This document shows positions 2,566 to 5,310 of a stretch of DNA of 64,000 nucleotides, one piece after another; the stretch's first letter is position 1; every line of letters begins with the position of its first letter. Below the pieces are notes generated by a model. That model saw nothing but the letters and a program-made list of their open reading frames with translations. It did no database searches and was not told where the DNA came from. Made by a program: the position numbers and the translations under genes. Origin of the DNA: Lonsdalea populi (GTDB lineage Bacteria; Pseudomonadota; Gammaproteobacteria; Enterobacterales; Enterobacteriaceae); contig NZ_CP065534.1 in NCBI RefSeq assembly GCF_015999465.1, positions 248,001 to 312,000 on the forward strand, given 5' to 3'.

Positions 2566-2645
2566 TGCGAAAGTGTTGGCTGCTCCTCTGTTTTCTTGCC
2601 GCAATGGCCGGATGCCGGAGCGCCGGCGCTTTCCGTCGGCGGTGA
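2565..2645 (+). CDS. Possible 26-residue lipoprotein-signal ORF coupled to glpR
   Basis: The ATG overlaps the glpR stop (TAATG). The frame encodes a basic start, a hydrophobic run and AMAGC, resembling a lipoprotein signal peptide with a Cys at residue 17. It then has only nine more residues (rich in Arg) before TGA. It could be the decayed front of a lost lipoprotein gene or a chance reading frame. No family is recognised. Confidence 0.2.
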   Translation: MRKCWLLLCFLAAMAGCRSAGAFRRR

Positions 2646-3019
2646 TATAACGCGTTGATCTTGCTATGCCTATCAACGGCAATTGCATGATAATCATCGG
2701 CTAGATATAGTTCCGATAGACCCTGTTTGGATCCAGGCGTTCGATCAGGCTGCCATCTACCGCCGGTAACGTGATGCAGGAAATGTTAGCACCTCTCACT
2801 CTTACCGGCGACCATCTGGACATTGGCTCGACAGACTCCGTCGTGACCTTCGAGGTTTAGTTCGCCCTGCGGCGTCCTAAGCATTGCGAAACGACGGTGT
2901 CGCCCACTGAATCGCTCTCAGCCGTAGACTAAAGGAGTATGATCGCGACCGCCTGACGAGGGTGAAGCTCACATGGCTTGACCTCGGAGATTGCTGGCTG
3001 ACCGGCTTCTCCCGGAAAG
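2646..3019. other. Intergenic stretch without a recognised gene
   Basis: These ~370 bases between glpR and the malP remnant contain only short broken frames. In E. coli the rtc genes, malT and the body of malP occupy this interval. It is most simply read as decayed sequence left by deletion of those genes, but I could not recognise any individual remnant before about 3020. Confidence 0.4.
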
Positions 3020-3180
3020 CTATCGACAATCCCGTTCTTTTATACCGTCGTACACAGCCGAGTGGACTCGCTGTACCGCAACCGGATGCGCGACTGTTGT
3101 GCCGCCAGGTGAATCGCGCTTTCTTTTATGGGAATGTTCAGGCCGATCGGACTCATGATTATCAAAACGTATGGGGCAGA
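3020..3180 (+). pseudogene. malP: 3' remnant of maltodextrin phosphorylase malP
   Basis: The stretch retains pieces of the MalP C-terminus in more than one frame. From 3062, GTG GAC TCG CTG TAC CGC AAC encodes VDSLYRN (E. coli VDVLYRD). After a stop and frame change, GGAATGTTCAG (3131-3141) and the codons for DRTHDYQ (E. coli DRSIRDYQ) and a Trp follow. These fragments are in the correct order and immediately precede malQ, exactly where malP ends in E. coli. The frame changes show that the gene is dead; the 5' ~2.2 kb is absent. Confidence 0.75.
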
Positions 3181-3204
3181 TGCGTTGTTAAGGAAGCAAT
3201 AAAC

Positions 3205-5310
3205 ATGGCGTTAGAGGCTAATAAAACGATACCCCGGCGAATTTCCATCGCCGAGACCTACGTTGACGACACCGGTCGCCACCAGAAAATCGACAGGTCG
3301 ACACAAGCGAAACTGCTGAGCCTGCTGAGCGCAGAGGGGATCAATGATCAGCCGATTCCGCCGGTGAAAGTGTGGCGTGAGGGGGAACCTGTGACGATCT
3401 GGGTACAGGGCAACGGCCACTATCGCTGGACGTTCGATTACGAGCAAGGCGGCCTGATTGAGGGCAAGATCGCGGGAGGGACATTCCTGACGCTGCCTGA
3501 GCCTTTGCCTCAGGGGTATCATCATTTGACGCTGGAACAGGACGGCCGGCGGTGGCGCTGCCAGGCGATTATCGCGCCGGTGTGTTGCTATGAGCCGGAG
3601 GCGCTCTCGCAGGGAAAACGCTGGTGGGGCGTCTCCGTACAGCTTTATACCTTGCGTTCTCAGCATAACTGGGGCATCGGCGATTTCGGCGATCTGAAAA
3701 CGTTGCTTGAAGAGGTGGCGCGGCGCGGCGGCGCGTTCGTCGGACTTAACCCACTGCACGCGCTGTCCCCCTCTGAGCCGGATAACGTCAATCCTTATAG
3801 CCCTTCGTCGCGTTACTGGATCAACACCATCTATATCGACATCAATCATGTGAATGATTTCCTCCAGAGCGAGGAGGCTCAGCGGTGGTGGCGAAGCGAC
3901 GAGACCCAACGTCGGTTGTCCGCCGTTCGCGCCAGCCGCTGGGTGGACTATCGATCGGTCACCGCGCTGAAACTGGATGCTTTGCGCCTGTCGTTCCAGC
4001 ACTTCAACCGTCGCAGCACGCTCGATCCGCGTCAGCTTGCCTTTCAGCAGTTTATCTCCCGCGGCGGCGGCAGATTGCAGCAACAGGCGACCTACGAGGC
4101 GTTATATGCGTGGCTGGAACGTCAAGGCGACTCATTCAGCGACTGGAGCCAATGGCCTGAATGTTATCAGGATGCGCAGGGGGAAAGTGTGGTCTGCTTT
4201 CGAGAGTCTCACGCTGAAGAGATCATGTTTTATTGCTGGCTGCAGTGGCTGGCTCATGAACAACTGGCGGCCTGCTACGATCACAGCAAACAGTTGGGGA
4301 TGCCGCTGGGGCTTTATCGGGAAGTGGCGGAAGGGGTGGCGTGCCGTAGCGCCGATTCCTGGCAGGAACGTCCCTTATTTTGCCACGACGCCAGTATCGG
4401 CGCCGTGCCGCAAATGCGGATGCCGCAAGGGCAGAGTGGGCCTCTGGCACCGGTCAATCCGGTTCAGCTGCAGCGCTACGGCTACCAGCCTTTCATCGAT
4501 ATGATCCGCAGCAATATGGCGCACACCAGCGCGGTGTGCCTCCATCATGTGGCGTCGCTGATGCGCGAGTGGTGGGTCCCGCAGGAGCGTGGGTCGGAAG
4601 ACGGCGGCTTTATCTATTATCCCGTGGACGACCTGCTGGCGATCCTGGCGCTGGAAAGCCAACGTCATCGCTGTATGGTAATGGGCGATGAGCAGGGCGT
4701 TTTGCCTGAAGGGATGGTCAGCAAACTGCGCGATAGCCGCATCTACTCCTGCCGGGTGCTGTTTTTCGAACGCAACCCGCAGGGGGAGTTCTACGCGCCG
4801 CAGGACTATCCGCCGCGCTCGATGGCGACCGTGACCACGCACGATTTACCGACGCTGCGGGGCTACTGGCAGCGTATCGATCTGATGTTGGCGCACGAGT
4901 TGGGCCTGTGTTCCGGTGACGTGCTGTTGAGCCGCAGACTTGAGGCGCGTGAGCAGGCTAAACAGGCGCTGCTGGACGCATTGCATCACTATGGACATCT
5001 ACCGCAGCGCGTGGGGCGCAATGCGACGCTGACGACGATGAGCGCTCAGCTAAGCCGAGGCGTACAGCGTTACCTGGCGGAAAGCGCCAGCGGCCTGCTG
5101 GGACTGCGTCTGGAAGAGTGGCTGGATATGGCGACGCCGGTCTGCGTACCGGGCGGAGAACAGCAATACCCCAACTGGCGGCGTAAGCTGAGTCGGTCAC
5201 TGGATTCCATCTTCGGGGATAGCTATCTGGAACGGCTGATGCGTGATATCGATCTGCGACGAAACAGACCGCTGCCGAGCAGGAACGGCGGCGCGCCAAC
5301 CGGGACATAA
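3205..5310 (+). CDS. malQ: GH77 4-alpha-glucanotransferase homologue with replaced catalytic residues
   Basis: Full-length (701 residues) homologue of amylomaltase, which disproportionates maltodextrins in the cytoplasm. The N-terminal domain (about 1-140) and the GH77 barrel are recognisable (LYTLRSQHNWGIGDFGDL, NPLHALSPSEPDN, YPVDDLLAILALESQRHRC, THDLPTLRGYW). The expected LRIDH motif reads VCLHH, so the nucleophile Asp is His447. The acid/base motif GEDLG reads GDEQG, so Glu is Asp495. GLYRDL reads GLYREV. The third catalytic Asp (Asp547 in THDLP) remains. ATG 3205 has AAGGAAG upstream and fits the E. coli N-terminus; an in-frame start at 2962 would include malP remnant sequence. Probably inactive or altered. 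Confidence 0.85.
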   Translation: MALEANKTIPRRISIAETYVDDTGRHQKIDRSTQAKLLSLLSAEGINDQPIPPVKVWREGEPVTIWVQGNGHYRWTFDYEQGGLIEGKIAGGTFLTLPEPLPQGYHHLTLEQDGRRWRCQAIIAPVCCYEPEALSQGKRWWGVSVQLYTLRSQHNWGIGDFGDLKTLLEEVARRGGAFVGLNPLHALSPSEPDNVNPYSPSSRYWINTIYIDINHVNDFLQSEEAQRWWRSDETQRRLSAVRASRWVDYRSVTALKLDALRLSFQHFNRRSTLDPRQLAFQQFISRGGGRLQQQATYEALYAWLERQGDSFSDWSQWPECYQDAQGESVVCFRESHAEEIMFYCWLQWLAHEQLAACYDHSKQLGMPLGLYREVAEGVACRSADSWQERPLFCHDASIGAVPQMRMPQGQSGPLAPVNPVQLQRYGYQPFIDMIRSNMAHTSAVCLHHVASLMREWWVPQERGSEDGGFIYYPVDDLLAILALESQRHRCMVMGDEQGVLPEGMVSKLRDSRIYSCRVLFFERNPQGEFYAPQDYPPRSMATVTTHDLPTLRGYWQRIDLMLAHELGLCSGDVLLSRRLEAREQAKQALLDALHHYGHLPQRVGRNATLTTMSAQLSRGVQRYLAESASGLLGLRLEEWLDMATPVCVPGGEQQYPNWRRKLSRSLDSIFGDSYLERLMRDIDLRRNRPLPSRNGGAPTGT

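Follow-up and report, generated by a model that had tools for sequence, protein, structure and literature searches.

Retaining transfer in family GH77 requires an Asp nucleophile, and without this residue the known reaction cannot proceed. E. coli MalQ (amylomaltase, GH77; PDB 4S3P, 4S3Q, 4S3R) is 48% identical to MalQ of Lonsdalea populi and supplies the site numbers used below, unless an L. populi residue is given. According to the available part of a 2024 review, the catalytic triad of GH77 is conserved (PMC11046441). For the plant enzyme DPE1, the accessible portion of the paper places Asp-293 within hydrogen-bonding distance of the nucleophile and describes Trp-338 as the gate and Gln-336 as a contact of the +1 sugar (PMC4705983). 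In S. agalactiae, S56 and N460 contact the sugar adjoining the covalent one, as far as the available text goes (PMC7990933).

We analysed a window of 64,000 nucleotides from L. populi, in which malQ is an ATG-to-TAA frame of 701 codons, open throughout, see Table 1. By profile and by fold the protein belongs to GH77. Besides its two Pfam matches it obtains 926 bits against the NCBIfam 4-alpha-glucanotransferase model NF008274 (cut-off 806), and the predicted structure superposes on E. coli MalQ chains with a TM-score of 0.88-0.91. The full-length GH77 frame that the sequence-only reading had described at this position therefore stands, with the frame itself, PF02446, PF21226 and NF008274 all in agreement. 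The mean pLDDT of the model is 76.9 and pocket loops have low confidence; the canonical control P0003 comes close to it in mean (77.6) and shares some of the weak loops, and therefore we do not use model confidence as proof. The genome (3,859,707 bases, one contig) was searched with the GH77 profile and malQ is the single match, so a second GH77 gene was rejected.

The ATG at 3205 is taken as the start because the ATG and the GGAAG upstream of it are identical in 5/5 aligned Lonsdalea sequences while the stretch further upstream varies. A GTG start at 2962, which would give 782 codons, was rejected as this stretch is full of small indels between species. Compensating frameshifts within malQ find no support either, as the alignment to E. 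coli MalQ runs through the motifs. A promoter scan found one candidate against 1.0 expected, and it lies within malQ.

Table 1. Features of the malQ locus of L. populi, in positions of the window.
Feature	Position	Strand	Basis
glpR-malQ interval	2566..3204		malP here in 6/6 related regions; no malP match in L. populi
AAGGAAG, ribosome-binding-site-like, 8 bases 5' of ATG	3190..3196	+	sequence, alignment
malQ, encoding a 701-aa GH77 protein whose active site is rewritten	3205..5310	+	open frame, profile searches, alignments
MalQ_N beta-sandwich domain, residues 51-125	3355..3579	+	PF21226, 58.9 bits
GH77 catalytic domain match, residues 145-663	3637..5193	+	PF02446, 328 bits, cut-off 25
Asn196 = E. 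coli S199, -2 subsite by motif	3790..3792	+	alignment
Glu373 = E. coli D374 (GLYRDL to GLYREV); pairs with Thermus GDMP Asp	4321..4323	+	alignments
Gate motif GAPPD...GQNW to GAVPQ...GQSG (Val401, Gln403, Gly412)	4405..4440	+	alignments
Cys445 = E. coli R446, invariant Arg	4537..4539	+	alignment
His447 = E. coli D448, nucleophile	4543..4545	+	alignment
Asp495-Glu496-Gln497 = E. coli E496 (acid/base), D497, L498	4687..4695	+	alignment
Cys516 = E. coli Y517	4750..4752	+	alignment
His546-Asp547 = E. coli H547, D548, kept	4840..4845	+	alignment
Cys647 = E. coli N648, -2 subsite by motif	5143..5145	+	alignment

Two of the three catalytic residues are replaced. The RIDH nucleophile, D in 120/120 other MalQ, is His447, and the GEDLG acid/base, E in 120/120, is Asp495 (4687-4689), while the Asp of the THD motif, the transition-state stabiliser, is kept as Asp547 (4843-4845) and is D in 6/6 Lonsdalea sequences. 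These three states, as well as the change of GLYRDL to GLYREV (D374E), had been read correctly from the sequence, but the list of replaced sites was too short: R446C, D497E, L498Q, P402V, D404Q, W413G, S199N, N648C, Y470F, Y517C and others have to be added. The gate Trp W413 is Glu in L. britannica. An Asp or Glu elsewhere in the active site, which the same reading had considered, is partly found, as D374 is changed to Glu and D497 to Glu beside the acid/base position. Among the residues that L. populi keeps are D548, H449, H547, the Gln within GQNW and, in L. populi numbering, Tyr198. In total, 14 of 102 columns that are near-invariant among 32 other sequences are replaced.

In a profile alignment covering residues 247-557, D374 falls opposite the Asp in the GDMP motif of Thermus, and W413 opposite the Trp in its GQRW motif. 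Judging by their motifs, D374 would be the counterpart of DPE1 Asp-293, W413 that of Trp-338 and the kept Gln that of Gln-336, and S199 and N648 would likewise correspond to S. agalactiae S56 and N460.

The same replacements are found throughout the genus. We compared five Lonsdalea genomes (L. populi, L. quercina ATCC 29281, L. quercina subsp. quercina NCCB 100490, L. iberica and L. britannica), one of which lacks the first 37 residues of MalQ at a contig end, and added P0002, an L. quercina protein taken from the database. P0002 represents a cluster of 61 sequences and may duplicate one of the five genome copies. The changes at R446, D448, E496, D497, L498, D374, P402 and D404 are present in all six sequences and in none of 120 other MalQ, that is E. 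coli and 119 of the best 120 of 4,899 matches, the remaining one being P0002 itself. A check of orthologues for common substitutions had been proposed, and this is its outcome; a sequencing error at these codons, or one of assembly, is excluded because the changes are common to all six sequences and occur in five genomes. Among 80 malQ loci, the four from Lonsdalea read H/D/D and the other 76 D/E/D (75 by pattern, L110 by eye). Two genomes that encode P0003 or a near-identical protein (G085 and G211) carry two malQ copies each, and the second copy (L203; G085:C1:4495740-4497791) is 58% identical to P0003. A malQ-like stretch of another genus, G343:C8:163014-164858, contains seven internal stop codons and looks broken.

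In a quick tree of 30 rows, the five Lonsdalea rows form one group (support 100) on a stem of 0.61 changes per site, with internal branches of 0.006-0.043. The adjoining row is CE90 (support 84), with an end branch of 0.18. Judged from these sequences, the catalytic-site changes are older than the split of the five genomes.

To describe selection we calculated dN/dS by the Nei-Gojobori method using our own script. Among the five genomes, malQ has a dN/dS of 0.085-0.128 in 10/10 pairs, at a dS of 0.20-0.49, which answers the proposed test for a dN/dS below 1. For canonical malQ in four related genera the values are 0.079-0.113 (6 pairs), 0.065-0.125 (6 pairs, three of them with dS above 1), 0.038-0.051 (6 pairs) and 0.043-0.053 (3 pairs), and a fifth genus offers one near-identical pair at 0.080. 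The constraint on Lonsdalea malQ thus equals that in two comparison genera and is weaker than in the other two; the genes neighbouring it show 0.010-0.180. There are no stop codons in malQ of the five genomes, compared with a mean of 39 in a neutral simulation where 0/300 runs were stop-free. Neither the broken frame nor the dN/dS near 1 of a pseudogene is seen.

The constraint is strongest where the protein was rewritten. Among the four parts compared in Lonsdalea, the rewritten core (residues 440-500) is the most constrained, with a dN/dS of 0.039. The cleft (residues 365-520) follows with 0.076, then the remaining barrel with 0.105 and the N-terminal domain with 0.124. In the four canonical genera the core has 0.073, 0.043, 0.031 and 0.009, and the rest of the barrel 0.066, 0.068, 0.040 and 0.033; for this latter part all four lie below the Lonsdalea value. 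At His447, Asp495, Glu496, Cys445, Cys516 and Cys647 the Lonsdalea genes differ only by synonymous codons, and Glu373, Gln403 and Gln497 each use one codon among the genomes compared.

We call a site invariant if it is conserved in 99% or more of the 120 other MalQ. Of 218 such sites, 33 are replaced on the Lonsdalea stem and 13 vary within the crown (e.g. W205G in L. britannica), against 41 and 95 of the 472 other sites (p 1.4e-6; three sites are counted in both stem and crown). Residues 365-520 hold 24 of the 33 stem changes at invariant sites and 74 of the 218 sites themselves (p 9e-7). The Lonsdalea-to-sister branch ratio is 1.7-2.1 for malQ, 1.05-1.34 for glpG, 0.80-1.09 for gntX and 0.65-0.76 for glpE, and 1.7-3.6 for glpR and 1.1-3.4 for nfuA (few changes); bioH had no outgroup, and tex has no match in the Lonsdalea loci. 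Since the glpR and nfuA branches are longer too, the rate rise of malQ alone is unremarkable, and we do not rely on it as proof. The recently relaxed selection suggested by the sequence-only reading is not what we find: the changes arose before the five genomes diverged, and purifying selection like that on canonical MalQ has acted since, most of all on the changed core.

The surroundings of malQ have lost the partner gene. Six related genomes share the order glpG-glpR-malP-malQ-nfuA-gntX-bioH, with malP directly upstream of malQ in all six regions, and L. populi has the same order apart from malP. No remnant of malP was detected in the interval by tblastn at 1e-4. It had been proposed that malP is lost, and this holds, but the loss is wider than claimed, extending to any phosphorylase, to GlgA and to the glg genes between asd and glpD. 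No phosphorylase of any kind and no match to GlgA are found in 5/5 Lonsdalea genomes; two phosphorylase matches occur in each of the relatives G018 and G026. Among the 392 genomes of the family that were searched, 239 have malQ and 242 a phosphorylase, and the only five of the 239 with malQ and no phosphorylase are the Lonsdalea genomes. The reverse case, a phosphorylase with no malQ match, occurs in eight family genomes (G108, G118, G227, G230, G301, G303, G364, G366). An intact GH77 protein lacking the canonical catalytic core in a genome lacking malP, as claimed from the sequence, is supported.

In all five Lonsdalea genomes asd adjoins glpD, and the stretches searched there have no match to E. 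coli GlgB, GlgX, GlgC, GlgA or GlgP. In L. populi this site of the E. coli glgBXCAP operon, from which the operon is missing, lies just upstream of the window (L165:18642-18840). Weak GlgB/GlgX-type pieces occur in G018 and G026 and in none of the Lonsdalea genomes. GlgB, GlgX and GlgC are probably missing from the whole Lonsdalea genomes, the search for GlgC having covered the asd-glpD stretches. Each genome has three or four alpha-amylase-family matches, all full-length (477-524 bits), and two LamB-type porins, which speak neither for nor against. MalT and E. coli-type MalF give only weak matches, which carry little information because G018 shows the same.

The glpD gene of L. iberica and L. 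britannica is matched in two tblastn pieces with a frameshift-like break near residue 393 (L172:2037-3520 and L169:16643-18126), and in one piece in L. populi, L168 and L170. In L. britannica (L169), tblastn likewise splits glpG in two. Three exported-looking GH13 proteins are encoded in L. populi at G000:C1:368411-369799, 704688-706085 and 707371-708771 (L129, L138 and L146). L138 is closest to sucrose isomerase/trehalulose synthase and lies side by side with L146. A sucrose-isomerase-like GH13 protein would fit a sucrose-based diet, which is context and not evidence on MalQ.

We consider it highly probable that Lonsdalea MalQ is a GH77 protein with a changed function and not one in decay, because the changes precede the split of the five genomes, lie in the cleft and were followed by constraint. 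The computations show that the Lonsdalea genomes lack malP and every phosphorylase, that the cleft was rewritten along the stem, where it lost its nucleophile, acid/base, invariant Arg, D374 and gate Trp, and that purifying selection has since maintained the rewritten cleft in the five genomes. This points to a new use of the protein and to loss of the old sugar pathway, in whichever order. The present MalQ would no longer form the covalent glucosyl-Asp intermediate, and a protein for which this is impossible would not be a canonical 4-alpha-glucanotransferase. From the retaining mechanism of the family we infer that the ancestral activity is lost.

As for the changed function itself, our leading but tentative proposal, at slightly less than even chances, is that the altered pocket binds a small ligand resembling a sugar and does so without catalysis, the protein serving as a sensor, a sequestering or a regulatory protein. 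We rank it first because the old machinery is lost at several places at once. Tyr198, Gln410, His448, His546 and Asp547 are retained in the putative ligand pocket. Glycan binding, as suggested from the sequence, is possible, although binding of maltodextrin in the old manner is doubtful because W413 is gone, as are S199 and N648, which the motifs place at the -2 subsite.

Catalysis by relocated residues ranks second, since two new carboxylates, Glu373 and Glu496, are fixed next to the old ones and leave room for catalysis; on balance we find it unlikely. MalQ would then still be an enzyme in which a newly formed set, Glu373, His447, Asp495 and Glu496, catalyses hydrolysis, transfer or some other reaction. 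These four residues and Asp547 are fixed in Lonsdalea, in a strongly constrained core. Glu373 extends one carbon further than the Asp that adjoined the old nucleophile, the DPE1 residue equated with D374 hydrogen-bonds the nucleophile according to the available text (PMC4705983), and migrated catalysis is documented for some pseudoenzymes in the part of the literature at hand (PMC10211241). However, the invariant Arg, the gate Trp and the motif-mapped -2 side chains were lost together, and no known homologue has this residue set. Slightly less probable is that the pocket was rebuilt as a new active site with chemistry new to the family, based on a metal centre or else on a nucleophile/acid pair at new positions, for which His447, His448, His546, Asp495, Asp547, Glu373, Cys445, Cys516 and Cys647, all constant in the Lonsdalea compared, are candidates.

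We give lower odds still to a moonlighting or scaffold protein, whose fold would be kept for protein contacts with the pocket irrelevant. The fold and the N-terminal domain are retained, and the ancestral activity is left without its phosphorylase partner, but if the pocket were irrelevant, one would expect the reverse of what is seen, a core more constrained than the rest of the barrel and the N-terminal domain. A residual canonical enzyme, slowly disproportionating maltodextrin despite the replacements, agrees with the NCBIfam score and with the retained Asp548, His449, His547 and GQNW Gln, and is nevertheless very improbable given that nucleophile and Arg are missing from 6/6 Lonsdalea and phosphorylase and GlgA from the pathway. 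Least credible of all is a decaying gene under relaxed selection, to which the loss of malP and the glg genes and the long stem would point, against the low dN/dS, the stop-free frames and the strongest constraint in the changed core.

The matches listed from the open-licence literature include no description of a pseudoenzyme in GH77 or among MalQ proteins. Of three main texts on the Lonsdalea genome or disease, PMC7914447 has no GH77 or maltose, PMC6412055 no GH77, maltose or glycogen, and PMC6856664 no malQ, glucanotransferase, maltose or glycogen. No statement on maltose use by Lonsdalea was found in the literature at hand, and the table in the available part of PMC9730526 has no maltose row. 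For annotation the case matters, as a score-based assignment (the 4-alpha-glucanotransferase equivalog) can mislead, for example in predictions of maltose or glycogen use by tree-canker bacteria. An entire genus breaks the GH77 triad in its sole GH77 gene, and selection then preserves the altered version. With a changed function as the preferred explanation, this is a clean case of an enzyme without its pathway, apparently reused without a GH77 paralogue and with close canonical relatives for comparison.

Compared with E. coli MalQ, the Lonsdalea protein has the same two Pfam domains, the same fold as predicted by the model, and an orthologous position before nfuA, and it differs in the nucleophile, the acid/base, the invariant Arg, D374, D404, W413, S199 and N648. 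The closest relatives among the matches listed, at 56-62% identity, are the MalQ proteins of Dickeya, Brenneria, Pectobacterium, Musicola and 'Pectobacteriaceae bacterium CE90' (P0003-P0026), all of which, unlike Lonsdalea, have the canonical D/E/D and the Arg. Pseudoenzymes in general, as described in the available part of PMC10211241, have a family fold without the canonical catalytic residues and are under selection, which is also what we see in Lonsdalea MalQ, where these residues are missing from an intact gene under purifying selection. As a point of difference, malQ of L. populi is a single gene, with no GH77 paralogue in the genome.
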